Below, piece by piece: positions 5,508 to 34,628 of a stretch of DNA of 44,461 bases (positions within the stretch are counted from its first letter, which is position 1; the number at the start of each line of letters is the position of its first letter). Location: NCBI GenBank assembly GCA_015272205.1, contig JACYMB010000168.1, positions 1 through 44,461 of the forward strand. Direction: 5' to 3'. A program made the translations under genes and the position numbers. The DNA is from Synechococcales cyanobacterium T60_A2020_003 (GTDB lineage: Bacteria > Cyanobacteriota > Cyanobacteriia > RECH01). The notes below the pieces were generated by a model that worked only from the letters and a program-made list of their open reading frames with translations, searched no databases and was not told the origin of the DNA.

Positions 5508-5569
5508 AGGGGCGGATTTTGCCCTCGCCCCTGGTATGTGCTGGGTTCTGTCTGCTAAACCCGCCCGTA
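5508..5569 (+). repeat. Interspersed palindromic-end repeat, copy R1
   Basis: A 62-nt unit starting AGGGGCGGATTTTG and ending CTAAACCCGCCCGTA, with near-complementary ends. It matches the units at 34566-34628 and, in reverse orientation, at 28042-28283. It lies in the 486-bp gap between the membrane-protein gene (5248) and the PPOX gene (5735). The rest of that gap holds only a partial echo (two GGCGGATT motifs near 5587-5610) and AT-rich sequence with AACTCAAAACT-type simple repeats. Confidence 0.8.
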
Positions 5570-5734
5570 CAAATCATGGGTATTCAGGCGGATTTGCTAT
5601 GAGGCGGATTCGTTCCGTTCAATCAGCAGCGAACCGTCATACCCAAAAAGTCAGCTATGGATAAAAGGCTGAATTCCCTGATGGTGAAATGCATTCACAA
5701 CTCAAAACTGAGAACTTAAAACTCAAAATTGGTA

Positions 5735-6316
5735 TTAGGGATTCACAGGTTGAGTCTGCCACTGTTCATCCATGCGCGTGTACAACGTGCGGTTTTGCGG
5801 ATCTCCTTTGAGTTCCAAATGATCCACCTCTTCCGGGTCAAGCAGCAACAGACAAAAGGTATCGAGGGGTTGGACAGGATCGGGGGTGGGGGGCGAGAAC
5901 GCCTCCTGAGAACTGCGGGGATTGCCGGGATGCGGCCACGCAAACTGAAGACGGGCACTGTCCGATAAGGCCACCCACTGCTGCTGACGCGCCCGTTGTA
6001 ACGCCCTATCGCGGTGATCCGCCGACACGAAGTTTAAAGCCCCACGCAGGCGAAACTGTTCGCGGCTTTTCGGAAAATACCAGCACACTTCTGCCCAGGG
6101 GTTCCCTTGGATCTGCCCAAACTTATAACTGCGGCGATCGGTAATAAACTTAAGCTGATTTCCAGGTTCTAAAAACCCGCGAAAAACGACCGTGCGATTG
6201 GCAGGGCGACCGCTGGGTTGAACCGTTGCTAACTGCACATAGCGAGCATAGACCAGGGAACGGTTGCGATGCAGCGCACGGGCAAGGGGCGATCGCCAAG
6301 GGGCAAGAGCAGACAT
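5735..6316 (-). CDS. FMN-dependent PPOX-family flavoprotein (alr4036-like)
   Basis: The protein has the split-barrel pyridoxamine-phosphate-oxidase pattern: ATVQPSGRPANRTVVFRGF (about 30-48), then RRSYKFGQI, WAEVCWYFPKSREQFRLRG, and WVALSDSARLQFAWP with the PxxGNPR turn. This is the arrangement of the cyanobacterial and plant alr4036-type family, which binds FMN. Its substrate is unknown, and true pyridoxal-phosphate synthesis is doubtful. The reading frame opens with a TTG at 6322. I take the ATG at 6316, giving 193 residues. It is divergent from the DUF1400 gene. Confidence 0.85.
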   Translation of the reverse strand: MSALAPWRSPLARALHRNRSLVYARYVQLATVQPSGRPANRTVVFRGFLEPGNQLKFITDRRSYKFGQIQGNPWAEVCWYFPKSREQFRLRGALNFVSADHRDRALQRARQQQWVALSDSARLQFAWPHPGNPRSSQEAFSPPTPDPVQPLDTFCLLLLDPEEVDHLELKGDPQNRTLYTRMDEQWQTQPVNP

Positions 6317-6447
6317 AGCCAAGCATTCCTCAAATCACACACGTTACCGCAATGTCAGAATAGGCAAAGGCAACTTTTTTGCAAATCACTCGTCAGTACT
6401 CTTTGCCGTAGGATTCCTTGCGGTTGTCTAGTTCTTCGTAAAGCATT

Positions 6448-7041
6448 ATGACCTTTTCTCTTCCCCTTCGGTGTGCTAGCGGTTTATTGCTGATGGCGTT
6501 GAGCGCTATTGGAGCCGCCGCCCCTGCATTGGCTGCCGATACGATTGTCTTGACCTACGGTGTACTGGAGGCATCCATTTCGGTTGACGAGCTAACCACC
6601 TTTGCCGAAACGGGGGAGCAGTCCAGTCGGCTTAAGCGCTACGTGCGGATGTCGGGACAAGAACCGGGAGAGATTCGCCGGACGCTGACCCGCGAAGTCG
6701 AAATTGATGGGGTCACGCTGGATGCCGCCCTCAATAATCCGATCGGCGAAGCTGCCCTCGATCAGGTTGGGGACGTGATTCACATGCGCTCAGGCTCGGC
6801 CAATCGACAAGCGCTGCGTTCCGCGTTGGTACTCTCTGCGAGTGATGACGATAAACTCAGTCTGTTGGAAGTGATGCAGAACTATCCCACCTCGGAGGTG
6901 ATGGTAGACGGGAAACGGTTGGCCTCCGCCTACGAACGTATTGCCGATTTGAGCGATCGCGCCCAGGATCTGATGGATCTGCTCAACATCGACTTACTGA
7001 ACCTTTTGGGGCAGACAACACACTCGCTCTGGGGACGTTAA
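6448..7041 (+). CDS. Secreted stand-alone DUF1400 protein
   Basis: 197 residues. The N-terminus is a signal peptide (LLLMALSAIGAAAPALAA, cleavage near residue 30). The body follows the DUF1400 pattern: ADTIVLTYGVLEASISVDEL, a small exchange-rich helix region, GVTLDAALNNPIGEAALDQVGDVI, and a TSEVMVDGKRL segment. In many cyanobacterial proteins DUF1400 precedes an alpha/beta-hydrolase domain. Here the protein ends after the DUF1400 part, so it has no catalytic triad of its own. It may be a natural short form or the remnant of a longer hydrolase. I see no continuation in the 200 bp downstream. Confidence 0.8.
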   Translation: MTFSLPLRCASGLLLMALSAIGAAAPALAADTIVLTYGVLEASISVDELTTFAETGEQSSRLKRYVRMSGQEPGEIRRTLTREVEIDGVTLDAALNNPIGEAALDQVGDVIHMRSGSANRQALRSALVLSASDDDKLSLLEVMQNYPTSEVMVDGKRLASAYERIADLSDRAQDLMDLLNIDLLNLLGQTTHSLWGR

Positions 7042-7261
7042 TAGGATTATCGTTGTTGCAGTTGTAGCAGACGGTGCGCTGTCATTGCCAAGCCTCATCG
7101 GTACGCATGCTGCCGTTGAAAAATGATGCTATGGTCTTCTGTGATACCCGTGCTAGGGGTAGAAACCTGTAATTCGCGCATTACCTCCCATGTCCAAGCG
7201 TTCGTTGTCTCAATAATCATCGCTAGCCTTTGCCAGTGATAGTTCTAAACCTTTTCAAGCG

Positions 7262-7660
7262 TTGGTTTCTCAGCGCCGGATCCGCAGCAGCGCGGCTGGC
7301 AATAGCTTGGATACCGCAACGTCAATTCCGGCCTACAGGGGCGAACAGACCTATCGCGATCGGGTCAGCGCGAAGAGTCCCGATTTTTATAAGCTCCGAT
7401 TCCTGGATGAGAGCGATATCAATGCTCTATTTCGTAATCGATCGTCATCGACCCTCCTGATCACCGCCTTGGATCGGGATGGAAATCCTGCAAGCTTAGG
7501 GGGTACAGATGCCAAGCTCAGAGTTCGGGCGGGCAAGTCTGTTCCAATCGCCATTGTTGAGATTCCCTCTGGAACCTACTACCTCAAGGTATCGACTAGG
7601 GGTGGGGAATCGGCATATCGTCTAAATATTGCTATTGAGCGTTCCTGCGGATGCGGCTGA
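7262..7660 (+). CDS. PPC-like (pre-peptidase C-terminal) domain protein, start unclear
   Basis: About 132 residues from a TTG at 7262. The core SLDTATSIPAY..DFYKLRFLDESD..LLITALDRDGNP..VEIPSGTYYLKVSTRGGESAYRLNI follows the beta-sandwich pattern of PPC domains, which occur in secreted proteins. There is no good start codon. The nearest in-frame ATG (7190, reading MSKRSLSQ) is cut off by TAA at 7214, and the reading frame is open again from 7217, encoding SSLAFASDSSKPF. The gene may therefore be interrupted, or it may start at the TTG. No signal peptide is visible in either form. The CGCG end just before the stop is unusual. Confidence 0.55.
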   Translation: MVSQRRIRSSAAGNSLDTATSIPAYRGEQTYRDRVSAKSPDFYKLRFLDESDINALFRNRSSSTLLITALDRDGNPASLGGTDAKLRVRAGKSVPIAIVEIPSGTYYLKVSTRGGESAYRLNIAIERSCGCG

Positions 7661-7792
7661 ACCAGCCCAAGCATGAGCCTCTAGCAGAAGATGGGCAAAA
7701 TTTAAAGCAAATCTGGAACTTCTCCCCTCAAAAACTATTCAAAGACAGTGAGCATAGATGTTCACATGTTTCGGCAAGGTCAGTGTGAAAGT

Positions 7793-8287
7793 ATGATTAC
7801 GTTCCATCGTCACGGGTTTCAATTCCGTCTCTCCAAAGGTCTCAGCCAAGGGTTAGTGGTGCTAGCGTTGGCTGCGGGTGGTATCCTGGCAGATGCAATT
7901 CCAACCTTTAGCGTCTCCTCCGGTCTCCAATTCGGCTCCGATGCCTACGCTCAGTCTGCGGTCAGCAGCAACGAGCTCACCAATTACGCGCGATCGCTCC
8001 TCGTGATTGAACCCATGCGTCAACAGGCATACGCCGATATTCAGGATATTGTCGGGGCTGGCAACGTGCCCTCCATCGCCTGTCATCGTCCCGATAGCGT
8101 TGATAGTTTGCCGAGCAATATCAAACCCATTGCCCGCAATTACTGCGATCGGGCGATCGCCGTTGTAGCAGAGAATAACCTCACCATTCAACGGTTTAAC
8201 GAGATTACGGTCTTCCTCAATCAGCAGGGCAGCGATTCGGATCTGCACAATCGCCTAGAGCAAGAACTGATCCGCTTACAGCAGTAG
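7793..8287 (+). CDS. Secreted DUF4168-like protein
   Basis: From the ATG at 7793 the protein has 164 residues. It has a long basic N-region and a hydrophobic core (GLVVLALAAGGILADA) that looks like a signal peptide. The mature part (SSNELTNYARSLLVIEPMRQQAYADIQDIVG.., then FNEITVFLNQQGSD..LHNRLEQELIRLQQ) is helical and matches the DUF4168 layout seen in cyanobacterial periplasmic proteins. In-frame GTG (7748) and ATG (7766) starts would add 9-15 residues. I prefer 7793 because it leaves a compact signal peptide. Two cysteines (in SIACHRP and RNYCDRA) could form a disulfide. Function unknown. Confidence 0.72.
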   Translation: MITFHRHGFQFRLSKGLSQGLVVLALAAGGILADAIPTFSVSSGLQFGSDAYAQSAVSSNELTNYARSLLVIEPMRQQAYADIQDIVGAGNVPSIACHRPDSVDSLPSNIKPIARNYCDRAIAVVAENNLTIQRFNEITVFLNQQGSDSDLHNRLEQELIRLQQ

Positions 8288-8295
8288 CCAACTTG

Positions 8296-8324
8296 AAAAA
8301 ATCCCCCACGCCAAGCGTGAGGGA
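8296..8324 (-). terminator. Rho-independent terminator after opcA
   Basis: On the minus strand a 10-bp hairpin (TCCCTCACGC / GCGTGGGGGA, 3-nt loop, one G-T pair) is followed directly by TTTTTT. It lies 44 bp past the opcA stop and probably ends the zwf-opcA transcript. Confidence 0.8.
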
Positions 8325-8367
8325 CGGGTTCATAATGCACGTATCCAGCAGGTGATGCCCTCTATCC

Positions 8368-9702
8368 CTAAGCCCTAAGCTTTAGAATCTCGGCAGTGAC
8401 AGCCAAGCTTTCTTCGTAGAGAACATCGCGCCCCCAGCGACGAAGCTGGCTACTCATGAGTTCTTCCGCTTTCTGGTCGGACAACGTCGTGACCTGCTCC
8501 GTCCGGCAATCCTGGGCACTGCCGCCCGCCTCCATCCGCATACAGCCCGTTGACTCCGAGCAGAGGATCGTACAACAGTCTGCCTGAAGGTTTGTAGAGG
8601 TCAGCCGCAAGCCCACTAAATCGCCGCTGATTTCGCCCCAATCAGCGGTGGGAATGGCCGCTAATTCCGCATCGATAATGCGTTGGTGGGAGTTTTCAAA
8701 CTTAACGTGTTTGATATCGTAATCGCCGCCCGTTTCGATAAATTCGATCGGTTTCCACTCTAGGCGACTGGCTAGCCATCCCAAAAACATTAGCGCTTGG
8801 GCATCGTTTCCTTTTTCATAATCAATCGAAACTTGATCAACCTCTACAAGTGCCGCGCGGCGTTCAGGGGGATCAAAGGCCGCCGCCGTCAGTTCTTGCC
8901 AAGGAAACAGCCGATGCCAGTTCAAGTCAGCGATGTAAATATCTGACTCAATTAGCTCATTCATTTTGGTCAGTTCAGCCTCGGCATCACTGAAGTAACT
9001 GGAATCCACGATGATGCAGTTTGCAACGGTGGACAAGCACTTAAACAGTTCTTGCTCTGGGTTGGGCGTTGCTTTCCACCAGACGAAGCGAGGTAGATCG
9101 GGAATCATCAGCGACTCAATCAGGTCGGCCACCCGTTCTAGTGCGGCTTTCGTGCCCCGTAAGGTGATGTACTCGCAGCAGACGAGGTTGCTACCCGCGC
9201 TGCTTTTCTGCACCGGACAATAGGCCGACACTTGAGCTGTAACCCCCGTATCCTCGCCCATGACGGGACAAAGGGTAATAATGCGACAGGGATTTTCAGC
9301 AGCGATCGCCTCGCTAATGCTAAACCCGCGCATATCAATATTAGGAATCACGCGATCGCCCGGTGACTTGTCCGCCACTTCTGACCGCAGGCGATCGACG
9401 GTTTCAGGATCCATACGCCCCGTAATCCGCAGGCCGTAGTGCTTTTGAGCATCACGGATGGCTTCTTTGGTCACATTGCCGTGGATACCGTCAATCGGGC
9501 CGTCGTAGAAACCAAGTGTTGCCAAGATCTGCTGAAACTCTTCTGGTTCGTAGACAACCATGCTGAAGGTCGCCGCTCGGATAGCCACCGGGGTAGTGCG
9601 ATCGCCCGAATTTTGGCTGAGCCAGATTTTACTCAGCTCGGCCTCAATCTCATCGAGCGAGATATCAATAGGTTTTTGGAGCGCAACAAGGGGAGTACTC
9701 AT
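8368..9702 (-). CDS. opcA: Glucose-6-phosphate dehydrogenase assembly protein OpcA
   Basis: 444 residues immediately downstream of zwf (21-bp gap, same strand), the standard cyanobacterial arrangement. OpcA binds G6PDH and is needed for its assembly and redox-dependent activation. The main body carries the family's segments (RIITLCPVMGEDTGVTAQV, CCEYITLRGTKAALERVADLI, LPRFVWWKATPNPEQELF, DLNWHRLFPWQELTAAAFDP). The N-terminal part (about 55-110: LATLGFYDGPIDGIHGNVTKEAI..HYGLRITGRMDPET) reads as a peptidoglycan-binding-type three-helix module. The protein is cytosolic, so that module probably has another binding role here. Confidence 0.93.
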   Translation of the reverse strand: MSTPLVALQKPIDISLDEIEAELSKIWLSQNSGDRTTPVAIRAATFSMVVYEPEEFQQILATLGFYDGPIDGIHGNVTKEAIRDAQKHYGLRITGRMDPETVDRLRSEVADKSPGDRVIPNIDMRGFSISEAIAAENPCRIITLCPVMGEDTGVTAQVSAYCPVQKSSAGSNLVCCEYITLRGTKAALERVADLIESLMIPDLPRFVWWKATPNPEQELFKCLSTVANCIIVDSSYFSDAEAELTKMNELIESDIYIADLNWHRLFPWQELTAAAFDPPERRAALVEVDQVSIDYEKGNDAQALMFLGWLASRLEWKPIEFIETGGDYDIKHVKFENSHQRIIDAELAAIPTADWGEISGDLVGLRLTSTNLQADCCTILCSESTGCMRMEAGGSAQDCRTEQVTTLSDQKAEELMSSQLRRWGRDVLYEESLAVTAEILKLRA

Positions 9703-9723
9703 AGCCTTATAAGAGTCCTTTAA

Positions 9724-11253
9724 TTACAACCGACGCCAATTTCGACCATCCTGGTTTAACAACATCTCTGCCTCAACTGGCCCCCACGTTCCGGCTTCGT
9801 ACAGCGGAATCGCAGCGGGATCACTAGGCGCATCCCACACCTCCAGCAGCGGGGTTAACAACCGCCACGACGCTTCCACCTCATCACCACGGGTAAACAG
9901 CGTTTGATCTCCTAACATACAGTCAACGAGCAGCCGACTATAGGCATCCGTATTCGGTTGACCAAAAGCGGCATCGTAGCGAAAATCCATATTTACAGAG
10001 CGAGTCCGGAGTGAAGTTCCAGGCGTCTTCACCTCAAAACGCATGGAAATTCCTTCATTCGGCTGAATCCGCAACGCCAGCACATTACTGTTCATCTGCT
10101 TCGCCGCCGACTGAAACATAATGTACGGGACTTCTTTGAACTGGATCGCAATTTCCGATACCTTCTTAGGCATTCGCTTACCCGTTCGCATGTAGAAAGG
10201 CACGCCTTTCCAACGCCAGTTATCAATATTGAGCTTCAGCGCGGCATAGGTTGGGGTTGTAGACATGGGCGACGCCCCATCTTCCTCACGGTATGCTGGC
10301 ACATTTTGTCCTTTCATCCAACCGTTGGTGTATTGTCCTCGGGTGGCCGAACAGAGCAGATCGTCCACATCCGCGAGGTGAGTCGCCTGAAGCACTTTTA
10401 CTTTTTCACTCCGAATGCTATCGGCATCTAGGGAGTTAGGAGGTTCCATCGCCGTCAGGCAAAAGAGCTGCATCAGGTGGTTTTGCACCATGTCGCGCAG
10501 TGCCCCTGAGGTTTCGTAATAGCCTGCCCGTCCTTCCAAACCCACTGTTTCAGCTACCGTAATTTGCACATGATCGACAAACTGACGATTCCAGAGGGGT
10601 TCAAAAATGGCATTGGCGAAGCGAAACACCAACAGATTTTGTACCGTTTCCTTACCAAGATAGTGATCGATACGATAGACCTGTTCCTCGGCACACACCT
10701 TTTGCACCACTCGGTTCAGTGCCTGGGCTGAGGCCAAATCATGCCCAAAGGGTTTCTCAATCACAAGCCGCTGCTTGCTGGGATTACTGAGCATTCCGGC
10801 TGCGCCAAGTTGCAGGGTTGCTTCGGCAAAAAATCGCGGTGCCACCGAGAGATAGAAGACACGATTTCCCCGTGTGCCCCGCATTTCGTCAATTTCGTTC
10901 AGCAACGCGTTCAGGTTTTCGTAGCTGCTAGGGTCGTCCATATTGCCAGGGCAGTAGAACAGTCCTTTCGCAAAATCATTCCAAATTTCTTCAGACTGAA
11001 GGCCACCACCAAACTCTTCCACACCTTGGCGCAGGTGCTCACGGAAGTAGTCATGGCTCCATTCACGGCGGGCAACACCAACAATGCTAAGTTCGGGGGG
11101 CAGTCGTCGCTCTAGCTTCATTTGGTAGATAGCTGGAACCAGCTTGCGCTGAGTGAGATCGCCGGATGCACCAAAAATAGTCAGGATTTGGGGTTCTGGC
11201 ACCCGATCTTGCTGGAGGCCAACGCGGAGGGGATTTTCGAGAAGAGTAACCAT
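9724..11253 (-). CDS. zwf: Glucose-6-phosphate 1-dehydrogenase
   Basis: 509 residues, normal length. The NADP-binding motif [11 protein letters not shown] is at 28-38, EKPFG at 166-170 and the substrate and catalytic signature RIDHYLGKE at 194-202. It oxidises glucose-6-phosphate to 6-phosphogluconolactone with NADP+, opening the oxidative pentose phosphate pathway that supplies NADPH in the dark. Cys187 and Cys445 fall where the two redox-responsive cysteines of cyanobacterial G6PDH have been described, so inactivation by thioredoxin in light is expected. It is the first gene of a zwf-opcA unit. Confidence 0.97.
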
Positions 11254-11440
11254 AAGGACATTTCAGAGACTTAGGACACGGGTCAGCAGAGGGATGCTGG
11301 AGGTATCACAACCGGAGTTTGTTACGTTGTAGTGTAGTTCAAGACTTTCGGAATCCTAGGAAAGCGAAACGGTTTATTCAGATTCCGCCCGAAATATGGG
11401 GGTAAGGCGTATCAGTGGATACTTTATGCGCTTGATCATC

Positions 11441-14212
11441 TCAACGGTCGCTAGGCTGCTTTCCCTTGGCACTGACTTGGGGGGGATCTATCCAACTCAC
11501 CCAAAGCGCGGTTGGAATCATCGGTAGCATGGGAATTAGGCAAATCAGCCATTGCTGCCATGTCAAGGGGGCTGTAGCAAAGAGGGTATTCATCACTCGC
11601 CACTGGCTGAAGAGCACTTGCAGCACCACAGCAGCAGTAATTCCTAAAAGGAGGATTGGAGCAGGGGCGATCGCCCCCGTTCGCCCTCGCACATACTCAA
11701 CGATATTTATCCCGAGTTGGCTAATGCTAATCAAATACACAATTCGTGCCGCTACCAGCGCTTGAATTGCCATGGTTCGTGCCACCGTAACGTCCCCCGT
11801 CGTAGACGTTGCCCATTCAAAGATTCCAAAAATTAAAGTCCAATTGAAGACGGATACTACCAGAATGCGGCGGAGCAAGTTTGGAGTGAGTAACGGTTCA
11901 TTGGGGTCGCGAGGGATCTGTTGCATCGTCCCTTGAGATTTCGGTTCAAACGCGAGGGGAACGGTCATGGTGATTGAATTAATCATGTTTAGCCAAAGCA
12001 CTTGCAAGGACAGGATCGGCAGCGTCCGTGCGAGCAAGGCACTGATCAAAATGGTCATGGATTCTCCGCCATTCACAGGCAGCAAAAAGGCGATCGCCTT
12101 CCGCAAGTTCTGATAAACAGTACGACCTTCTTCCACGGCAGCTTCGATAGACGCAAAATTATCATCGGTCAACAGCATGTCCGCCGATTCGCGGGCGACT
12201 TCCGTTCCGCCTTTCCCCATCGCAATGCCAATATCAGCCTGTTTGAGTGCTGGGGCATCATTGACTCCATCCCCCGTCATCGCAACGATATGACCCTGGG
12301 CTTGGAGGGCTTCTACGAGTTGGAGTTTTTGCGCTGGGGCAACTCTCGCAAAAACAGATCCTTCGGCAGCAGCGGTTTGGATTTCAGACTCGCTCATTGG
12401 GGTAAGCTGCTGCCCCTCATAGGCAATCACGCCAGCAGCAGTTTGAATTCCCATCCGTTGGGCGATCGCCCGAGCCGTGGCAACATGATCGCCCGTAATC
12501 ATCTTGACTTGAATCCCCGCAGACTGACAGGCATGCACCGCGGCGATCGCCTCTGCACGGGGCGGATCAATCATGCCTTGCAGCCCCAAAAATACTAAAT
12601 CAGTAGCGATGTCTTTATGATCGATCGCATGCTGATGCTCGGCCCTCTTCTGAGCAAACGCTAGCACCCGTAACCCCTGACCTGCCATTGCCTCCACCTC
12701 GTGCTGAATCTGGGCTGAAGCCAGAGCGATCGCCTGCCCCTGCCCATCCAGCATCTGGGTACACCAACTGAGCAGTGCTTCTACCGACCCCTTGACATAA
12801 ATCATCCGCGACGCAGCATCTTGCAGGGTGGCCATATGTTGATAATCAGACTCAAAGGGAATCGCATCTAACCGAGGTATCGCCGCCATGAGTCCCGCTT
12901 GACTCAGCCCTGCTTTCTCCGCTACGGCAATCAACGCGCCCTCCGTTGGATCTCCCACCACCGACCAATCGACTCCAGTTTGCTTCAACTGGGAATCGTT
13001 GCAGAGAACGCCTGCAACCAAGCACTTTTCTAACGCAGGGGGCAATTCGGCAACATCGAGCGACGTCTCATCGCCGTTGGGTTGATTCACCCGAGAAATG
13101 TCGCCTTTAGGACTATAACCACCACCACTGACCCGATACTGCTGTTGACCTGCATAAATGGCTTGAACCGTCATCTGGTTTTCGGTCAATGTCCCAGTTT
13201 TGTCAGAACAAATAACCGTGGCACTGCCCAACGCTTCCACGGCTGGTAATTTACGAATAATGGCGTTTCGTTTACGAATAATGGCGTTTCGTTTCGCCAT
13301 GCGGTTTACCCCAATGGCCAACGTAATCGTTACCACCGCAGGTAAGCCCTCCGGAATGGCACTCACCGCCAACGCCACGGCGGCCTCAAACATATCAATC
13401 CAGGACTCGCCTTGCCCCAGCCCAACTACAAAGGTGAAGGCCGCTAAAGTCAAGATGACATAGAGCAGAACACGGCTAAATTTCTCAAATTTACGAGTCA
13501 AGGGCGTGCTTAGGCTGACTCGATTTTCCATTGACTGAGAAATCTGTCCCACCTCTGTCGCATTAGCGGTTGCGACCACAATGCCTTGCCCCTGCCCAAA
13601 GGTAACAAAGCTGCCAGCGTAAGCCATGTTTCGCCGTTCGGCAAGCGGGGTATCCACCGGGAGAACCTGAACACCCTTCTCCACTGGAACCGATTCCCCC
13701 GTGAGGGCGGATTCATCTACCTGTAAATTGCGGACTCGCAGGAGCCGCACATCTGCCGGGACTTTGTCCCCTGAGGTCAGCATCACTAAATCCCCTGGTA
13801 CCAAATCTCGCGAGGGAATCCGTAGCGGTTGACCGTCTCGCACCACAGTGGTTTCAGTCGTGACCGCCTTTGCTAAGGAAGCGATCGCTCCCTCCGCCTT
13901 GGCCTCTTGCACGTAGCCAATGATGGCATTGATCAGGGTTACTCCCCAGATCACCGATGCGTTAGTCCAAGAGCCCAACAACGCCTTCACTATCCCGGCT
14001 AGGAGCAAGATGTAGAGCAACGGCTGATGAAATTGCAGGAGAAAACGTAGCCATGCAGGTTTTCCAGGCTTAAATTGCAATTCGTTCCAGCCATACTGTT
14101 CATAGCGGCGTGCCACCTCCTCAGGCATTAATCCCGTCTCTGCAAGGCTGCCAAGCTGTTCAAGAATATCCTGGTCAGACAGGGCATGATAGGGGTGGGA
14201 TTGAGCGAGCAT
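11441..14212 (-). CDS. P2-type cation-transporting ATPase
   Basis: A full-length P-type ATPase (923 residues from ATG 14212; the frame opens at a GTG at 14260). Order: N-terminal cation_ATPase_N segment, membrane pair, actuator loop with TGES, M4 with AIPEGLPA, phosphorylation motif DKTGTLT, hinge MTGDGVNDAPALKQADIGIAM, and six C-terminal helices. A GGAGG stands 5 nt before ATG 14212, which supports that start. M4 PEGLPA resembles calcium and P2 pumps, but M6 (QVLWLNMINSITMTVP) lacks the Asp that coordinates Ca2+ in SERCA, so the ion is uncertain. The family includes PacL- and Pma1-like proteins. The KRNAIIR segment before the P-domain is exactly duplicated. Confidence 0.92.
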   Translation of the reverse strand: MLAQSHPYHALSDQDILEQLGSLAETGLMPEEVARRYEQYGWNELQFKPGKPAWLRFLLQFHQPLLYILLLAGIVKALLGSWTNASVIWGVTLINAIIGYVQEAKAEGAIASLAKAVTTETTVVRDGQPLRIPSRDLVPGDLVMLTSGDKVPADVRLLRVRNLQVDESALTGESVPVEKGVQVLPVDTPLAERRNMAYAGSFVTFGQGQGIVVATANATEVGQISQSMENRVSLSTPLTRKFEKFSRVLLYVILTLAAFTFVVGLGQGESWIDMFEAAVALAVSAIPEGLPAVVTITLAIGVNRMAKRNAIIRKRNAIIRKLPAVEALGSATVICSDKTGTLTENQMTVQAIYAGQQQYRVSGGGYSPKGDISRVNQPNGDETSLDVAELPPALEKCLVAGVLCNDSQLKQTGVDWSVVGDPTEGALIAVAEKAGLSQAGLMAAIPRLDAIPFESDYQHMATLQDAASRMIYVKGSVEALLSWCTQMLDGQGQAIALASAQIQHEVEAMAGQGLRVLAFAQKRAEHQHAIDHKDIATDLVFLGLQGMIDPPRAEAIAAVHACQSAGIQVKMITGDHVATARAIAQRMGIQTAAGVIAYEGQQLTPMSESEIQTAAAEGSVFARVAPAQKLQLVEALQAQGHIVAMTGDGVNDAPALKQADIGIAMGKGGTEVARESADMLLTDDNFASIEAAVEEGRTVYQNLRKAIAFLLPVNGGESMTILISALLARTLPILSLQVLWLNMINSITMTVPLAFEPKSQGTMQQIPRDPNEPLLTPNLLRRILVVSVFNWTLIFGIFEWATSTTGDVTVARTMAIQALVAARIVYLISISQLGINIVEYVRGRTGAIAPAPILLLGITAAVVLQVLFSQWRVMNTLFATAPLTWQQWLICLIPMLPMIPTALWVSWIDPPQVSAKGKQPSDR
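13251..13292 (-). repeat. Exact 21-bp tandem duplication in the ATPase gene
   Basis: Two identical 21-nt units, 13251-13271 and 13272-13292, with no spacer. They encode KRNAIIR twice in frame, in the normally invariant MAKRNAIIRKLPAVE stretch between M4 and DKTGTLT. Confidence 0.9.
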
Positions 14213-14589
14213 CACATCCTCCACTGAGTAGATACTTTTAGAGTGGGATCCAGTCCCCACCCCTATACCTTAACCATCTTGCAGTCGCCATAACCCCGAT
14301 CTGAGGGAGGATGTCGAGGGTTAGGGGATGAACAGCGTTTGTTCATCCATTGGCCTACTGGGCAGAAGTGGATTGTGGGGGAGGAGGACTAAGCCCTCTT
14401 GAAATACACCATTGGGCGATCGCCCCAGAAGAGTCATCCAGATCAGATCCAAGTCCAATGATCTAAAAGGAAATTCACAGTTATCACTGACATAACAGCT
14501 TTCTATCGCCTGATCCCGCGGGTGAGATTTCCTACAATGTAAAAACAAAGTAACATTAGGATGGAAATTCAATAGCGGTCAGTCTAACT
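14213..14589. other. Divergent intergenic region ahead of ndhC
   Basis: About 375 bp between the ATPase start and ndhC, and the likely site of both promoters. It holds a 12-bp palindrome centred on HIP1 (GGGCGATCGCCC, 14414-14425). I could not pick a convincing -35/-10 pair. Confidence 0.4.
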
Positions 14590-16216: not shown

Positions 16217-16234
16217 AGCAAGTAGAGTGTTACG

Positions 16235-26025: not shown

Positions 26026-26090
26026 GGCCTAACATTTCCCACTCAGCTTTCGGATCATAAGCGACTGTCGGCTTTTCGGCATACCCAGCA

Positions 26091-26978: not shown

Positions 26979-27146
26979 AACCATCCTCCTTGAAGCATCT
27001 AAAATTTAATTCGTTCAGCATACAGTAGGGCTGGAAGTCCTCGGTAAAACTTGACATTTTCTACAATCTTGCGTTGCATATAATGGCTGAGGGTTACGAA
27101 ATCTCACAAAACGTTAACTAACGATCACCCAGTAGGAGGGATGCGC

Positions 27147-28043
27147 GTGCAGGTATTAGAGACAGTGGCCGGACGGTCGGTTGAAGATGTATTGGCAATT
27201 ACCCGATCGATTGGCTGGGGGGCTGCCGACATTTTGCGCGCCTTCTACCGTGGAGAAGCGCCCGATGGTGCAGAACTGGATGTTCACGAAAAGAAAGATG
27301 GCCCGATTACCGCTGCGGACTTAGCGGCCAACCATTACATTCTGGATCACCTCACAGACGCCTTAGGTCACGACAGCTTTGGCTATCTCAGCGAAGAAAC
27401 TTACAAAGCCAAAGGAAAGCAAGAACCGTTTCCCGATCCGTGGCTGTGGATCATTGATCCCCTAGACGGAACTCGTGACTTTATTGATAAGACTGGAGAG
27501 TACGCACTGCATATTGCGCTGACCCATCTCGGTCGTCCGGTTCTAACCGTGGTTGTTTGTCCCGAACTGGAAAAACTCTACTTTGCGTCCCTGGGCAACG
27601 GTGCGTTTGTAGAAACTCCAGACGGCACTGTAAAGCAATTAACTGTTTCCGATCGCTCAAATCCTGAAGATCTCGTGGTCGTGGTCAGCCGCACCCACCG
27701 AGACGAGCGGTTTAACAATTTGCTTAAGCAGTTGCCCTGCCCGAAACAGCTTGCGGTGGGTAGTGTGGGTGGCAAGGTTGCGGCGTTGGTGGATCAGCGG
27801 GCGGATATCTACATTTCCCTATCGGGGAAGTCGGCTCCTAAGGATTGGGATATGGCGGCTCCTGAGCTGATTCTGACGGAAGCAGGCGGGAAATTCACCT
27901 ACCTAGATGGTTCACCGTTGCAGTACAACCGGGGAGATGTGAATCAGTGGGGATGCCTGATTGCCAGCAATGGGCATTATCACGAGTCACTGCTTAAAGA
28001 GGCCGCCGAGATTTTAGAAAAAATTGACGCAGGCGTGAAGTAG
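27147..28043 (+). CDS. cysQ: 3'(2'),5'-bisphosphate nucleotidase / inositol-phosphatase family (CysQ-like)
   Basis: About 298 residues. It has the metal-site motifs of the lithium-sensitive phosphatase superfamily: SEET near residue 87, DPLDGTRDF near 108, and WDMAAPELILTEAGG in the C-terminal third. CysQ hydrolyses 3'-phosphoadenosine 5'-phosphate, linking it to sulfate assimilation. Inositol-1-phosphatase activity is an alternative. An AGGAGG at 27134-27139 is one base from ATG 27141 and seven from GTG 27147, so the GTG may be the real start (difference of two residues). Its TAG stop (28041-28043) overlaps the first copy of the repeat array. Confidence 0.85.
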   Translation: MQVLETVAGRSVEDVLAITRSIGWGAADILRAFYRGEAPDGAELDVHEKKDGPITAADLAANHYILDHLTDALGHDSFGYLSEETYKAKGKQEPFPDPWLWIIDPLDGTRDFIDKTGEYALHIALTHLGRPVLTVVVCPELEKLYFASLGNGAFVETPDGTVKQLTVSDRSNPEDLVVVVSRTHRDERFNNLLKQLPCPKQLAVGSVGGKVAALVDQRADIYISLSGKSAPKDWDMAAPELILTEAGGKFTYLDGSPLQYNRGDVNQWGCLIASNGHYHESLLKEAAEILEKIDAGVK

Positions 28044-28104
28044 AGACGGATTGAGCCGATAGATCTTCCTTAAAGATCAGGGTTTCGTTGCAAAACCCGC
28101 TTCT
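28042..28104 (-). repeat. Palindromic-end repeat, array copy 1 (diverged)
   Basis: A 63-nt unit read on the minus strand. Its left end (GCGGGTTTTG) is well kept and its right arm (AATCCGTC) is degraded. It begins within the stop codon of the CysQ gene. Confidence 0.65.
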
Positions 28105-28131
28105 AGCGTATACCTCTGTTTCTCCAATAGG

Positions 28132-28194
28132 TACGGGCGGGTTTAGCCGATCGCTTTTGCTTACTATCAGGGTTTCGTTGCAAAACCCGCCCCT
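28132..28194 (-). repeat. Palindromic-end repeat, array copy 2
   Basis: A 63-nt unit on the minus strand: AGGGGCGGGTTTTG, 34 bp, CTAAACCCGCCCGTA. The arms GGGCGGGTTT and AAACCCGCCC pair perfectly. A second inner pairing (GGGTTT with AAACCC, 7-nt loop) is also possible. Confidence 0.85.
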
Positions 28195-28220
28195 GGCGGT
28201 ATACATCTATTCCCCATAGA

Positions 28221-28283
28221 TACGGGCGGATTTAGCCGATAATTCTTGCCAAATCTTATGATTTCACCATAAAATCCGCCCCT
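28221..28283 (-). repeat. Palindromic-end repeat, array copy 3
   Basis: A 63-nt unit on the minus strand with GGGCGGATTT and AAATCCGCCC arms. Relative to copy 2, one base has changed in each arm and the stem still pairs. The spacers between array copies (27 and 26 bp) are also similar, both containing GTATAC and a CCxATAG motif, giving an 89/90-bp period. Confidence 0.85.
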
Positions 28284-28480
28284 ACATACCTAACATTGAA
28301 TTCATCCAGGTGAATGCTCCTTACAAAATCTGAACAATTTTCTCCGAAGATAGAAGAAATTTCGCGTAGATATTGCTAGAACCCTTGTCAACCTTCAAGG
28401 CTTAACCCAAATTTTACCCCGTCTTGGAGTTCAGCTTTGATAAGCTGAGGATGCCGCGCAAGGAATACGACCTCCGAACG

Positions 28481-29365
28481 ATGCATAAGCTTCTCTCTGG
28501 TGCGTTGAGTGTTGAACGGTTAACGATTGAGATTGCCGATTTGCCTGAGCAGTTGCAAGGCGTTACCATTGTCCAGCTTTCTGACCTCCATTACGACGGT
28601 TTGCGCTTATCGGATTCGTTGCTAGAAGAGGCGATCGCCCATAGCAATGATATTGATCCGGATATCGTTGTTCTCACCGGAGATCACGTCACGGATGATC
28701 CGACGCCAATTAATGCCCTTGTCGAACGACTTCAACAACTACGGAGCAAGGCGGGCGTTTATGCCATTCTGGGAAATCACGATATTGTGCCCAGTTTCGC
28801 CAAAGCTCAAATCACCGAAGCGTTTGAAGCAGGTGGGATTTCGGTTTTATGGAATGCGATCGCCTATCCCTTCGAAAACGATCTACCCCTAGTGGGACTA
28901 GCCGATTATTGGTCACGGGAATTCAATCCCAGCGCCACCCTCGATCAGCTAGATCCCGCAACACCACGGATCGTTCTCTCCCATAATCCCGATAGTGCCG
29001 TCCCCCTGATGCAGTGGCGCGTGGATTTGCAACTGTCCGGGCACACCCACGGCGGCCAAATCGTTTTACCGGGTCTAGGGCCTGTCCCCAGTTGGTATCA
29101 ACAGGTGCGTCGTCATGTTCCTAAGTCATTGCGTCCTTGGATTCCCTACATGCGGGAGGATTGCCATAAGGTGGTGAAGCACTGGGAGTGGGCACAAGGA
29201 CTCCACACCGTTGGAAAAAACCAGCTTTACGTGAACCGTGGATTAGGCACATTCCCGCCCGGACGGTTGCTTTGCCCGCCTGAATTGACAGTGATTACCT
29301 TAGTTCCTCAAAAGATCCCAACTCCTGCAACCGTTGCACCCAAGCAAGCCGTTAGTCCGGTTTAG
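28481..29365 (+). CDS. Calcineurin-like metallophosphoesterase
   Basis: 294 residues from ATG 28481. The frame opens further upstream (TTG 28424, ATG 28451), but the conserved part starts at MHKLLSGALSVE. All metal ligand blocks are present in order: QLSDLHYDG, VVLTGDHVTDD, ILGNHD, SHNPD and SGHTHGGQ. This is the YkuE-like branch of the superfamily, whose members are often membrane-associated phosphohydrolases. The substrate is unknown, and LpxG/LpxH-like lipid hydrolysis is one possibility. No signal peptide is seen. It lies downstream of the repeat array. Confidence 0.88.
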   Translation: MHKLLSGALSVERLTIEIADLPEQLQGVTIVQLSDLHYDGLRLSDSLLEEAIAHSNDIDPDIVVLTGDHVTDDPTPINALVERLQQLRSKAGVYAILGNHDIVPSFAKAQITEAFEAGGISVLWNAIAYPFENDLPLVGLADYWSREFNPSATLDQLDPATPRIVLSHNPDSAVPLMQWRVDLQLSGHTHGGQIVLPGLGPVPSWYQQVRRHVPKSLRPWIPYMREDCHKVVKHWEWAQGLHTVGKNQLYVNRGLGTFPPGRLLCPPELTVITLVPQKIPTPATVAPKQAVSPV

Positions 29366-29402
29366 AAAATGCATCGTGTCCATCCTCTCCTAATCGTGGG
29401 GA

Positions 29403-29957
29403 ATGAAGATTCAAGACTTGCAATCCGATCAGTCTGACCGTATTCAGCAAGCCGCTGTACTACTGCTCGATGGGTTTCAGGACTGGCCGAGCGGATGGAA
29501 AACCCTAGAGTCAGCGCTAAAAGAAGTTCATGAGTCGCTAGCCGACGCTCGCCTTAGTCGTGTTGCGCTGGATGCAGCCGGACAGGTGATCGGCTGGATT
29601 GGCGCGATTCAAATTAATCCCTATCTCTGGGAACTTCATCCGCTGGTCGTCAAGGAGAGGTATCGAGGGCAAGGGATTGGGCGATCGCTCGTCCAAGATT
29701 TAGAACAACAGGTGGCATTGCGCGGAGGCGTCACCCTCTGGCTAGGCACCGATGACGATCATGATTGCACATCCCTCTTCGGAACCGATGTGTATCCCAA
29801 CGTCTTGGAACGCTTGATGCACCTTACCGCCCATCGTGAGCATCCCTGTGCGTTCTATCGAAAAATGGGGTTCAGCGTCGTGGGCGTGTTGCCCGATGCC
29901 AACGGCTGGGGACGCCCCGATATTTTGATGGCCAAACGGATGACGCCCAAGGCTTAA
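29403..29957 (+). CDS. GNAT-family N-acetyltransferase
   Basis: 184 residues. The acetyl-CoA binding signature is RYRGQGIGRSLVQDLEQQV (about 90-108), preceded by the beta strand LHPLVVKE. After it come WLGTDDDHDCTSLFGTDVYPNVLERL and HPCAFYRKMGFSVVGVLPDANGWGRPDILMAKR. The latter part resembles environmental GNAT proteins often annotated as aminoglycoside 6'-acetyltransferase-like, but resistance activity cannot be inferred from that. It lies 37 bp after the metallophosphoesterase, so cotranscription is likely. Confidence 0.85.
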   Translation: MKIQDLQSDQSDRIQQAAVLLLDGFQDWPSGWKTLESALKEVHESLADARLSRVALDAAGQVIGWIGAIQINPYLWELHPLVVKERYRGQGIGRSLVQDLEQQVALRGGVTLWLGTDDDHDCTSLFGTDVYPNVLERLMHLTAHREHPCAFYRKMGFSVVGVLPDANGWGRPDILMAKRMTPKA

Positions 29958-30257
29958 TATTCGCTTTACCTGAGCTTCACCTCCGTATGACATAGTGTCT
30001 ATGCGTTGGCGATCGCCTCTCAACTCCGTATTTCTGCGGCTACTGGCGATCGCCCATAGACTCCGCTCTCCCCGTTGGCTAGCCCTACGTTTATTGTCCT
30101 TGAATACACTCAGTTAGAGGCTACGCTGCATCGTCAGCACGCAGCAATCAAAGCTGGCATCGTGAACCCACGGTTTCCGACTCCGCCTTTGGAACAGGCA
30201 GCCCCGGCAAGAGCGGTGTCCAACCTTTACTGTTGTTTTCGGTGCAATAAAGCAGAT

Positions 30258-32216
30258 ATGGCAAGCCTTAACCTGAAGTTCATTGGACGATATTCTACAG
30301 GCGTGTTCGATGAGGGAGCCGCACAGATTTCCACCTATGATCCAAACTCGAAGCGCCTCTTTGCTGTCAATGCGGACAGTCAGACCGTTGATGTTTTAGA
30401 CCTCAGCAAACCCAATAAGCCCAAGCTGGTGTTCACCATTGATGCGTCTAGTTTCGGAGGCGGCTCCGCAAACAGCGTGGCGGTGAAAGACGGCATTTTG
30501 GCGATCGCCATTGAAAATAGTGATACCCAAGCCGATGGCAGTGTTGTCTTCTACGACGTTCGCAAAGAGACACCAAAAGTCCTGAAAACAGTCACCGTAG
30601 GCGCACTGCCTGACATGCTGACCTTCACACCGGATGGCAGTAAGGTACTGGTCGCTAACGAAGGCGAACCCAGCAGTGACTACACCGTTGATCCAGAAGG
30701 CTCCGTCAGCATTATTGATCTCAGTAACGGAATCAAGCAGGCAACCGTTACCACCGCAGACTTCAGGGCATTCAACGACCAACGTGAGAGTCTTCTGAGT
30801 GCAGGCGTACGCATTTTTGGCCCTAATGCAACCGTTGCCCAGGATTTAGAACCAGAATACATTGCCGTTTCACCAGATTCCGCTACCGCATGGGTCACAC
30901 TCCAAGAAGCCAATGCTCTCGCTGTCGTGGATATCGACGCTGGAACGGTTACCAAGATCGTCCCCTTGGGCTATAAGGATTACTCGGCTCCCGGTAACAA
31001 ACTGGATGCCAGCAATAAAGATGGCAGAATCAATCTTCAGAACTGGCCTGTATTCGGCATGTACCAACCAGATGCGATCGCCTCCTACAAATCAGGCGGG
31101 AAAACCTACCTCGTCACCGCCAACGAAGGCGATACCCGTGACTATGACGGATTCAGCGAAGAAGAACGCATTGCCGACGTTATTCTTGACCCAACGGCGT
31201 TTCCCAAGGCCGCAGAATTGCAGGCTGAAGCCAATCTCGGTCGTCTTTTGATCACCAATACGCTTGGCGATACCGATGGAGATGGAGACTTCGACGAACT
31301 TTACTCCTTCGGTGGGCGATCGTTTTCGATTTGGAACGCGAAGGGCAACCTTGTGTTTGACAGTGGCGACGATTTTGAAAAGCGTCTCGCAAAACTATTG
31401 CCGAATGATTTCAACTCCAACAATGACGCCAACCAGTCCTTTGATAGCCGCAGCGATGACAAAGGCCCCGAACCCGAAGGCGTCGTGCTGGGTTCCATTA
31501 ACGGACGCACCTTCGCCTTTATCGGTCTGGAACGAATCGGTGGCGTGATGGTATATGACATTACTAACCCAAAAGCCGCAACGTTTGTGGACGACGTGAA
31601 TCCCCGTGACTTCAGCGTTGTCTTCAATGAGGATAGCGAGGGAAATCCGGATCCAACTGCAGAACAGCTCGCAGCCATCGGCGACCTAGGCCCAGAAGGG
31701 CTCACATTCATCGCAGCTCAAGACAGTCCTAGCGGCGTTCCCCTGCTCGTGACCGCCAATGAAGTCAGCGGTACCACCAGTGTTTTCGAGATTAACTACA
31801 AGCCCCAAGCCTTCGCTACCAACGGCGATGATCAAATCGAAGGAACCCCGAAGGGCGATCGCATTAAGGGCAAGGGCGGAGATGACACCCTGCTTGGCGT
31901 CGCTGGAGATGACAAACTCGTCGGCGATGAGGGCAATGACATCCTGATTGGCGGAAAGGGGGATGACGTAGCCAAGGGCAGCGATGGCAGGGATATTTTT
32001 GGCATTGGCGATGGTGATGGCGTTGACCTCATCCGAGACTTCCAGGACGGCAAAGATACCCTCGGACTTCTGAATGGTCTCTCCTTTGGCAGTCTGACCC
32101 TAGAAAACGATGGCAAGTTTGCCCTGATTAGCGCCGATGGTAAAGTACTCGCTGAGCTGAAAGGGGTAGACTCAAACGATTTAAGTCGTTCTGATTTTAC
32201 GAAGCTGTCGATCTAA
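30258..32216 (+). CDS. Choice-of-anchor I beta-propeller protein with RTX tail
   Basis: 652 residues from ATG 30258. The reading frame extends back to a TTG at 30075, but those 61 residues look non-coding. The main part (DEGAAQISTYDPNSKRLFAVNADSQTVDVLDLS; VANEGEPSSDYTVDPEGSVSIIDLS; VTANEGDTRDYDGFSEEERI; GPEPEGVVLG) follows the choice-of-anchor I / LVIVD-type propeller pattern of secreted proteins. From about residue 525 it has calcium-binding RTX nonapeptides (GGDDTLLGVAGDDKLVGDEG), then a hydrophobic end resembling type I secretion signals. There is no N-terminal signal peptide. Extracellular location by type I export is the best guess. Substrate unknown. Confidence 0.82.
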   Translation: MASLNLKFIGRYSTGVFDEGAAQISTYDPNSKRLFAVNADSQTVDVLDLSKPNKPKLVFTIDASSFGGGSANSVAVKDGILAIAIENSDTQADGSVVFYDVRKETPKVLKTVTVGALPDMLTFTPDGSKVLVANEGEPSSDYTVDPEGSVSIIDLSNGIKQATVTTADFRAFNDQRESLLSAGVRIFGPNATVAQDLEPEYIAVSPDSATAWVTLQEANALAVVDIDAGTVTKIVPLGYKDYSAPGNKLDASNKDGRINLQNWPVFGMYQPDAIASYKSGGKTYLVTANEGDTRDYDGFSEEERIADVILDPTAFPKAAELQAEANLGRLLITNTLGDTDGDGDFDELYSFGGRSFSIWNAKGNLVFDSGDDFEKRLAKLLPNDFNSNNDANQSFDSRSDDKGPEPEGVVLGSINGRTFAFIGLERIGGVMVYDITNPKAATFVDDVNPRDFSVVFNEDSEGNPDPTAEQLAAIGDLGPEGLTFIAAQDSPSGVPLLVTANEVSGTTSVFEINYKPQAFATNGDDQIEGTPKGDRIKGKGGDDTLLGVAGDDKLVGDEGNDILIGGKGDDVAKGSDGRDIFGIGDGDGVDLIRDFQDGKDTLGLLNGLSFGSLTLENDGKFALISADGKVLAELKGVDSNDLSRSDFTKLSI

Positions 32217-32241
32217 TTGAGCCTGAAGCGTTGATCCGATG

Positions 32242-32270
32242 CGGTGGTGTGCCCTACACCACCGTTTTTT
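32242..32270 (+). terminator. Terminator after the RTX protein gene
   Basis: Perfect 9-bp GC-rich stem (CGGTGGTGT / ACACCACCG, 5-nt loop) followed by six T. Confidence 0.9.
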
Positions 32271-32478
32271 ATGGTTTAGCGACTATGGAATTTCTTGTGC
32301 AACCCAGAAATACTTTTGTTTTTCTACTCCCCATCCCCATGCCAGGTACTATGGATTTTGATGTCTCAACGGAATTTATAAATCTTTAGTAAATCATCGT
32401 GGCAGGCGTTTACTCTTGACCAGTCGTTGGGAATATTGATTCAATAAGCAGTTTTCTGCTTCAGGGTGTTCATCCAAG

Positions 32479-32500
32479 TTAGACATATCTTAGACATATC
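32479..32500. repeat. Tandem 11-bp repeat
   Basis: TTAGACATATC twice in a row without spacer, about 245 bp upstream of the TPR gene. The 11-bp period is close to one helical turn. The rest of 32271-32744 shows no gene that I can support. Confidence 0.6.
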
Positions 32501-32744
32501 ACGGATTGATTGGGTCTGAGCCGTAGACCATAATGCTGAGCGATCGCAGTCTATTGAATCCGTACATGGCGCTGAAGTGTTTCGTAGGCTTCATAGGGCA
32601 GCCGCGCATTGCCAGATGAAGCTCTCTAATGGTGATCATTGTGATCGGGTTTGCAGTCTTGACATTGAACACTGCACCCTTGTTGGGCATCTCGCTCATT
32701 TGAATCTGGGGAACTAGTTCTTGAGTCAGCTTTCAGGCTCTACC

Positions 32745-33562
32745 ATGACAAACGATTCCACCGATAAGGCTCTGTATGATCAGGGGCGCAAGCTCTATAA
32801 GCTCGGTCGCTATGAAGTGGCGATCGCCAAATTTGATAAGCATCTGGCACGCCATCCCGATGACGCCGAGGCGTGGGCCTATCGGGGACATGCTCTCTCG
32901 GCCTTAGAGATGCTGCCAGAATCCTTGGAAACCTTTGATCGCGCCATTCGGATTAAATCAAAGCTCGAAACGGCTTGGCATGGTAAAGGTGTGGTCTTAA
33001 CCAAACTCGAACGCTACAAAGATGCAGTACAAGCCCTGGATCGGGCAACCACACTGGAACGCCAGGATTATCGTGCCTGGTACAACAAAGGTCACGCCTA
33101 CGTAGGCATGGGACGCCACAAAGATGCGATCGCCTGCTTCGACAAAGCGGTAGAGATCAAACCCGAAAACTACCACGCTTGGTACAACAAGGGGTAGCCC
33201 TTTTAGCACTCCATCGCTATGAAGATGCCCTGACCAGCTTTGACATCAGCCTTTCGATCCAACCGAAGTGCTACTACGCTTGGAATTCTCGCGGCCTAGT
33301 GCTGGCAAAACTAGAACGGCATGAGGAGGCGATCGCCAGTTTCGATCGTTCGATTCGAGCCAAGTCCGACAATCCTCAAGCTTGGTATGGCAAAGCTCGC
33401 TCCTGCGCTGCGCTGGGCGATCTTTCCTCAACAGTTAATAACTTGTATCGAGCCATGATTCTCAGCCCGAACCTGTATAAAGTAATGGCAAAAACGGATT
33501 CTGAATTTGACACCATGCGCCATGATCAGAGGTTTCAGGCACTCATGAATACCAGTGGTTAA
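32745..33562 (+). pseudogene. TPR-repeat protein interrupted by a frameshift
   Basis: The first frame (ATG 32745 to TAG 33195-33197) encodes a tandem TPR array ending YHAWYNKG. The -1 frame continues exactly where the next repeat should run (GVALLALHRYEDALTSFD..) to the stop at 33560-33562. Restoring one G in the GGGG run at 33191-33194 joins them into a protein of about 272 residues with seven 34-residue TPRs. TPR arrays mediate protein-protein contacts, and no partner is evident. It may be a real inactivating mutation, a sequencing error in the G-run, or slippage of glycine tRNA on GGGG. The second half is intact, so loss would be recent. An upstream TTG at 32721 is unlikely to be the start. 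Confidence 0.8.
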
Positions 33563-33610
33563 TGTGCCCCAAAACGTCCAACCGCGTATTTTCTAAGCGT
33601 GATTAAGCTA

Positions 33611-33639
33611 TAAAAAACTCCGGACAACCCGACCGGAGT
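33611..33639 (-). terminator. Terminator of the methyltransferase gene
   Basis: On the minus strand ACTCCGG pairs with CCGGAGT (9-nt loop), followed by a six-T run. It lies 160 bp beyond the stop at 33799. Confidence 0.75.
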
Positions 33640-33798
33640 ACATCACATTTAGGGAGACTTCTGTAATGGAGTTTTGGGAGACTCTATTACCACATTGAGG
33701 CTGTAGACAAGAGTTGGCGCAAAACCAACCCTCTATGCCCTTATTTGTAACACAATGTAAACAACTATTGCAATTTTTCACGATGGTTGTAGGCGCTT

Positions 33799-34443
33799 CT
33801 AGCAGCGCTGGGCGATCACCGCATAGAAAGGATCGCCGCTCGGCATCCCCAACAGTTGGAACAGAGAGGGCAACGGAGGCTTGCGCTCAATGACATCTGG
33901 CGGACTGAATCCGGCAACCGCATCAAAATAGCCTTTTACAAGCTGAACCCGCCCTTCTTCGGTATTGTCCCGCCAGATCTGGATCGCCTTTTGGTAAAAC
34001 ATCCGGTTTGAGAAGCTGACGATCGCCAGTCCACCGGGTTTCAGCACCCGATAGATTTCGCTAAAGATCGCTTCGGGATATTGCAAATACTGAACTGACA
34101 CCGTGTTCAGCACCGCATCAAAGGAGGCATCGGGGAACGGTAGTTTTAAATCTTGGTTGAGATTTTGAACGAAATAGTGATCCAATCGTGGGTTTTTAGC
34201 CAGTTCCTCTGCATTCAGGCCATGCCCTTCCACATGGGCAAATGCCATCTCATCAGGCAAATGGGACACCCAACTGCTCATCAGGTCAAGAATGCGAGTG
34301 TTGGGCGACAGGCGATCGCGATACAGATCCGTAAGCTGGCGAATAAACCCGTCGTCTACGTGGGTGACAAAGCGGGGATAGTCGTAAAAGAACAGATCAT
34401 TAGTTTCATCAAGTTTGCTGCGGTGATCAGGACGAAGCAGCAT
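33799..34443 (-). CDS. SAM-dependent methyltransferase domain protein
   Basis: 214 residues. The SAM region is unusual: motif I reads TRILDLMSSWVSHLP in place of the canonical DxGxGxG, followed by VEGHGLNAEEL, DLKLPFPDASFDAVLNTVSVQYLQYP and EIYRVLKPGGLAIVSFSNRMF. This matches a recognised group of short cyanobacterial and plant methyltransferase-like proteins with a degenerate glycine motif, so activity is not certain. Substrate unknown. It is isolated, with its own terminator. Confidence 0.82.
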   Translation of the reverse strand: MLLRPDHRSKLDETNDLFFYDYPRFVTHVDDGFIRQLTDLYRDRLSPNTRILDLMSSWVSHLPDEMAFAHVEGHGLNAEELAKNPRLDHYFVQNLNQDLKLPFPDASFDAVLNTVSVQYLQYPEAIFSEIYRVLKPGGLAIVSFSNRMFYQKAIQIWRDNTEEGRVQLVKGYFDAVAGFSPPDVIERKPPLPSLFQLLGMPSGDPFYAVIAQRC

Positions 34444-34565
34444 AGGGCAGATCGGGCAACGCTACACCTCTTAGTCTAAAGATGTTGTGAAATATTAAGC
34501 AAGCGACGGATAGGGCGATCGCCCATCCCATCAAATTCGGTTCATCCATGATTCATCCGTCGTGG

Positions 34566-34628
34566 AGGGGCGGGTTTTGCCTTTAAACCTTGATGCTGGC
34601 TGGGTTCAAGCTGCTAAACCCGCCCGTA
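34566..34628 (+). repeat. Interspersed palindromic-end repeat, copy R3
   Basis: 63 nt: AGGGGCGGGTTTTG, 34 bp, CTAAACCCGCCCGTA. The 10-bp arms are perfect. It also shares TGCTGGGTTC-like inner sequence and the downstream flank (ATxATGGGxATT) with the copy at 5508. It lies between the methyltransferase and recG genes. Confidence 0.85.

Follow-up and report, generated by a model that had tools for sequence, protein, structure and literature searches.

The window analysed here is the whole stretch of 44,461 nucleotides from Synechococcales cyanobacterium T60_A2020_003 (contig JACYMB010000168.1, positions 1 to 44,461), and it carries five copies of a hairpin repeat at three sites. These repeats are very probably members of a dispersed family of double-foot repetitive extragenic palindromic (REP) elements, REPIN-like hairpins of the kind that belongs to subclass-2.4 REP-associated tyrosine transposases (RAYTs, or TnpA-REP). 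It is a new family within an already known kind, the RAYT-associated double-foot REPs. For subclass 2.4, REPs of the double-foot type have been described, as have in-frame insertions of REPs into the RAYT gene itself, and the double-foot REPs were reported to be common in Cyanobacteria (PMC6006769). The initial annotation had compared the repeats with REP-type palindromes or small mobile elements. This comparison is borne out by the same hairpins at RAYT genes of other genomes, by their intergenic placing, and by a copy number of at least 54 in the host genome.

Structure and copies of the hairpin

The hairpin is laid out as a GTAG-type foot, a 13-nt arm, a variable loop of 32-34 nt, and the mirror-image arm and foot. 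The host core reads GTA[C/G]-GGGCGGGTTTAGC-N32-GCAAAACCCGCCC-CTA[C/G] with a constant unpaired A.A, or TACGGGCGGGTTTAGC-N32-GCAAAACCCGCCCCTA when written with full arms. The 10+2-bp stem folds in nearly all copies, as DNA or RNA, with z-scores of about -2 to -5; in copy 5507 the inner GGGGC makes a different fold preferable. Of 125 distinct cores, 121 lack pairing at stem position 11, where the mismatch is usually A.A. Across the cyanobacteria, the commonest foot 5' of the arm is GTAG (128/250), followed by GTAC (17/250).

The ends had been described as lying at an almost fixed distance around variable inner sequence, and both observations hold. Of 139 arm pairs at cyanobacterial loci (18-100 nt apart, fetched with a bait that permitted 52-64 nt), 138 measure 57-60 nt from arm to arm, and the ten arm pairs outside the bait pattern are all 58 or 59 nt long. 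Hairpins with the same arms were found across Cyanobacteria with loops that vary by species. Since the loops differ between species and the length is constant, it is the length that is conserved rather than the loop sequence. In the aligned host copies, conservation is about 91% in the arms and about 60% in the loops, a contrast inflated by the arm-based model with which the copies were collected. Two loop subfamilies are present in the host, A (AGACAGAACCCAGC...) and B (CGATAGACCTTGCT...).

All five copies of the window are present within 1 nt of where the initial annotation had placed them. They are listed here with the parts that surround them.

5468-5506, minus strand: right outer flank of a ~134-bp unit, GCTATCTGAGATGGATCATTGCTTAACAGAATTTAGATA
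5507-5569, minus strand: REP core copy, arms GGGCGGGTTTAGC / GCAAAATCCGCCC with one G.T pair, covariance model E 5e-16
5570-5600, minus strand: left outer flank of the ~134-bp unit, inverted-repeat end TAGCAAATCCGCCTGAA, 1 mismatch to the end consensus
28041-28105, plus strand: degenerate REP core copy, first of the triplet, covariance model E 1e-5
28106-28131, plus strand: tandem-array spacer of 26 nt, resembling the 25-nt spacer 28196-28220
28132-28195, plus strand: REP core copy, second of the triplet, perfect arms, covariance model E 4e-17
28221-28284, plus strand: REP core copy, third of the triplet, paired G-to-A / C-to-T change, reverse-strand GTAG foot, E 4e-15
34526-34564, minus strand: right outer flank of a ~134-bp unit, CCGAATTTGAT end
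34565-34628, minus strand: REP core copy, perfect arms, covariance model E 1e-18
34629-34659, minus strand: left outer flank of the ~134-bp unit, end ATATCAAATCTACGG

The feet orient copies 28041, 28132 and 28221 on the plus strand, and copies 5507 and 34565 oppositely on the minus strand. The arm motif, at one mismatch or fewer, occurs 21 times in the window and 7.3 +/- 2.8 times in shuffles. The open reading frame (ORF) 27141-28043, inositol-monophosphatase-like, ends with a TAG stop codon that forms the first three bases of copy 28041-28105, and copy 34565 follows the stop of recG (34659-37157, minus strand) at a distance of about 30 nt. The ~134-bp unit surrounds copies 5507 and 34565, not the triplet at 28 kb. 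This unit, the triplet start on a stop codon, the constant A.A mismatch and the GTAC/GTAG feet are features beyond those of the initial annotation.

The host genome is a 4.02-Mb draft of 403 contigs, about 96% complete, and it was searched through models and patterns. With a covariance model trained on nine copies, four of the five window copies among them, at least 54 distinct places were found at E<=0.01 and at least 56 at E<=0.02; as 150 of 694 genome candidates were scored, these counts are lower bounds. The threshold suggested beforehand had been about ten copies genome-wide. The distribution of the family is patchy: copies occur in 12 of the 59 genomes searched, host included, and the covariance model search gave none in three genomes of the same family. 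None of 28 testable host cores lies inside an ORF of at least 120 aa, compared with 810 of 1120 random places (72%). The flanking ORFs are convergent at 10 cores, tandem at 16 and divergent at 1, and the cores lie mostly 3' of genes. No known RNA family in Rfam matches at the repeat places, and a literature search for the arm sequence GGGGCGGGTTT turned up no related paper.

Other features were seen alongside the family. A second small element (~90 bp; ...GCTAGCTTAGGACATGGACATT...AATGTCCTAAC..GATATGGCTAGCGCTATA) is inserted within one REP copy, L078 (G000:C8), and abuts the host copies in L016, L018, L035 and L069. The window also encodes the small RNA Yfr1 at 1284-1348 on the minus strand (Rfam RF01116, 59.5 bits), and has a perfect 21-nt tandem duplication at 13250-13291 within the large ORF 11441-14260 (minus strand). 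A phycobilisome linker protein was also among the genes identified in the host, and together with Yfr1 it shows the host to be a cyanobacterium.

RAYT genes beside the same hairpins

Hairpins with the same arms and the same length stand at subclass-2.4-like RAYT genes in Pseudanabaena frigida, two further Pseudanabaena genomes, cyanobacterium RM1_2_2 and two other genera. In P. frigida (counted once with G107, which is apparently the same genome), one hairpin lies upstream of the RAYT gene and two lie in frame within it, in the part that separates the HuH motif (NHIH) from the tyrosine motif. One hairpin lies within the RAYT ORF of RM1_2_2, which is cut by a contig end. Elsewhere, four hairpins surround one RAYT (G116), two stand at a RAYT (G143), one stands on each side (G349), or two lie directly upstream (G340), and the RAYT gene of G044 contains short loopless versions of the hairpin. 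The hairpin-linked RAYTs bear the subclass-2.4 signature PNH[IVL]HG, WQR and YI..NP (motifs read by eye; cf. PMC6006769), with the variants NHIH or NHVH (NHLH in G349), WQR, and YIINNP or YIVNNP (YIQTNP in Pseudanabaena). The subclass was taken as having GT[AG]G as the foot of one end and the reverse complement as that of the opposite end, together with NH[IFV]H, WQ and YIxNNP. With a density of about 30 copies per 5.5 Mb, we estimate a chance expectation of less than 0.01 copies at 600 bp or less from a given gene. In several Pseudanabaena genomes a different but related RAYT is flanked by a sister arm family, GTAGAGCATTTGCG..CGCAAATGCTCTAC, which is 62-63 nt long. The sister family was often seen on both sides of that RAYT (L121, L130, L146-L157).

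The initial annotation had reported no transposase in the window; the ten ORFs checked agree with this, and a search of the whole host draft detected no subclass-2.4-type RAYT at E<=1e-10. The Y1 genes of the host were considered as partners and rejected, since they represent other groups and are located on other contigs or at a distance from the hairpins. Two neighbouring Y1 genes on contig C276 are likewise of other groups, with no such hairpins nearby.

In comparison with the double-foot REPs of subclass 2.4 (PMC6006769), the family is alike in the RAYT-flanking and in-frame hairpins of its relatives. It differs in the fixed loop of 32-34 nt, the constant A.A and the GTAC foot variant, for which no description was found, and in a host that lacks such a RAYT. 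With the REPINs of Pseudomonas fluorescens SBW25 (PMC3116915) it shares a pair of conserved inverted ends, about 16 nt each, set at a fixed distance, a variable spacer, a long hairpin and, presumably, dispersal in trans. However, each REPIN end overlaps a REP palindrome, whereas here the arms pair only with the partner arm. The repeat works like a REPIN, at a fixed distance, yet is not classed as one because its arms are not self-palindromic. The GTAG families, including the cyanobacterial GTAG-12, -15 and -16, share the GTAG tag, the intergenic position and the convergent or tandem genes, as far as their text descriptions go (PMC3733652), and the present arms may equal one of them.

Several observations weigh against assigning the host copies to this kind. 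The left foot is mostly GTAC (32/56), not GTAG, and the right foot is GTAG or CTAG, with GTAG in just 16/56. The arms pair solely with each other and are not self-palindromic like classical REPs, and the loop is longer than in the text descriptions of the GTAG families (PMC3733652). Host type-A loops show no significant similarity to RAYT-linked loops, and type-B loops bear no more than a modest resemblance to those of Pseudanabaena (p 0.002-0.003 among 14 comparisons). In the host itself no empty site was seen, and 14 units of the ~134-bp type gave no evident target duplication, either as TA (on both sides of 1/14) or as any longer duplication. A host RAYT, finally, could lie in a gap of the draft. 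Support for mobility comes from the relatives, not from the host genome.

Outer units and competing explanations

Similarity among the host copies continues past the core, for 31 nt to the left and 39 nt to the right, and the whole unit measures ~134 bp. Its ends are inverted repeats, TATCAAATCCG ... CGGATTTGATA (a consensus from about 20 copies, with variation). Of 56 host copies, about 20 retain both flanks and about ten others retain the right flank alone. This suggests that a miniature inverted-repeat transposable element (MITE) picked up the core in the host and may have aided its spread. TA target duplications were considered and are unsupported. An autonomous element with the same inverted-repeat ends was sought; the left-end pattern gave repeats, one end fragment (L099) and apparent chance matches.

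In Pseudanabaena, most of the dispersed copies fetched sit in a MITE of ~136 bp with the ends CTGATGTTACGTGGAA / TTCCACGTAACATCAG, unrelated to the ~134-bp unit of the host. Exact direct repeats of at least 6 bp flank 27 of 44 such units, where 1.5 were expected from flank shuffling, and the target duplications are 6-8 bp long. A target-site duplication, which the initial annotation proposed to look for, is thus found at the Pseudanabaena MITE carrying the core and not in the host. Its second check, for empty sites, gave one candidate in the same genus: a G052 unit is missing in G178, where flanks of 94-96% identity meet at a diverged junction of 13 nt. What would be empty at this candidate site is the MITE unit in its entirety, not the core alone. 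The MITE holds the core in either orientation, and G143 (L337-L360) has both orientations within otherwise alike units, which suggests loop inversion between the inverted arms or repeated insertion. It also occurs without the core, with other interiors, and in L398 the core lies within a 239-bp unit whose related copies without it are 165 bp long. Units with the CTGATGTTACGTGGAA end and an interior of 149-151 bp bearing another long hairpin (CCCCTCTCCT...AGGAGAAGGGG) were seen in L379, L394, L399, L377 and L056, most of them with target duplications of 7-10 bp. In other cyanobacteria the core lies inside yet other apparent inverted-repeat ends (seen by eye), for example AAGTAGGT...ACCTACTTA in Microcoleus, Lyngbya and Phormidium.

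One alternative would make the repeats ordinary MITEs that depend on a terminal-inverted-repeat (TIR) type, DDE transposase: the ~134-bp unit with its TCAAATCC/GGATTTGA ends would be mobile and the GC-rich hairpin a mere interior. The retained outer flanks of the host copies, together with the target duplications and the candidate empty site of the Pseudanabaena unit, speak for it. Nevertheless, we consider it unlikely. The outer ends are wholly different between lineages with the core unchanged, and many host copies, the window triplet included, are without flanks. Moreover, the core stands at RAYT genes with no such ends seen around it in a search that was not exhaustive, the Pseudanabaena MITE exists with other interiors, and neither a TIR-bearing autonomous element nor a target duplication was found in the host. 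Cyanobacterial TIR-type MITEs such as Nezha, as cited in PMC3733652, share the inverted-repeat-ended units of ~134-140 bp, and the target duplications in the case of Pseudanabaena. The difference is that the core here is a RAYT-linked hairpin occurring with several unrelated inverted-repeat ends. Nesting of REPs itself has precedent, since REP dimers of Anabaena variabilis lie within long palindromes according to the same paper; its GTAG-15 dimers are enclosed much as the cores are in the outer units described here. For A. variabilis that paper found no outer palindrome free of a REP, whereas Pseudanabaena does have such units without the REP, and with target duplications.

The initial annotation had also taken a paired change in copy 28221 as evidence for selection on, or copying of, a folded form. 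The double change, GGGCGGATTT / AAATCCGCCC, is real, and single changes occur at the same pair in copy 5507 (G.T) and in L013 (A.C). Over 54 copies, collected with a pair-aware model, double changes in the stem fill 15 cells compared with 7.8 in shuffles (p ~0.01), which is modest. In the best 12 copies they fill 1 cell compared with 0.4 and are not above shuffles, so that strong covariation is unsupported by either set. Most departures in the stem are single transitions by which a pair is broken or weakened, the pattern that decay predicts. The one compensated pair of 28221 is weak evidence of selection on the fold because covariation barely beats the shuffles and single breaking changes predominate. 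A function of the hairpins as transcription terminators or as mRNA-stabilising 3' elements under selection, with dispersal secondary, is very improbable: strong stems in DNA and RNA, the slight excess of double changes and an intergenic position mostly 3' of genes, almost never between divergent genes and once on a stop codon, would agree with it, but a gene 3'-end bias is typical of REPs generally (PMC3733652), covariation of the best copies stays at the shuffled level, the five copies found via outer ends (<=1 mismatch) all have arm changes, and the family has no Rfam match and is absent from the three same-family genomes.

Proposed history and its meaning

We hypothesize that the double-foot REP core was spread by a RAYT. 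By analogy with characterised RAYTs, the enzyme would act on the single-stranded hairpin, cutting and joining at the foot, and core copies would spread in trans into intergenic sites. Because the host is without a cognate RAYT, its copies are most likely orphaned relics that arrived or spread earlier and are now decaying. A MITE would have taken up the core and helped disperse it in the host, a step for which there is support from another MITE, that of Pseudanabaena.

Of greatest interest is the nesting of the REP inside MITEs. We tentatively propose that, in several cyanobacterial lineages, unrelated TIR-type MITEs may repeatedly have picked up one RAYT-type hairpin as cargo, and that this hairpin could then be copied by two chemistries and spread on after its own RAYT was lost. 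If so, the RAYT would copy the hairpin on single strands and a DDE enzyme would copy it through the outer ends, and spread would continue without the RAYT, as in the host. The Pseudanabaena composites, some carrying the REP and some lacking it, are a natural test case for REP survival after transposase loss, and the fixed-length GTAG-GGGCGGGTTT hairpins are substrates for testing subclass-2.4 RAYTs. The double-foot REP assignment would also account for the conspicuous GGGCGGGTTT hairpin repeat in many cyanobacterial genomes and tie it to a named transposase class.

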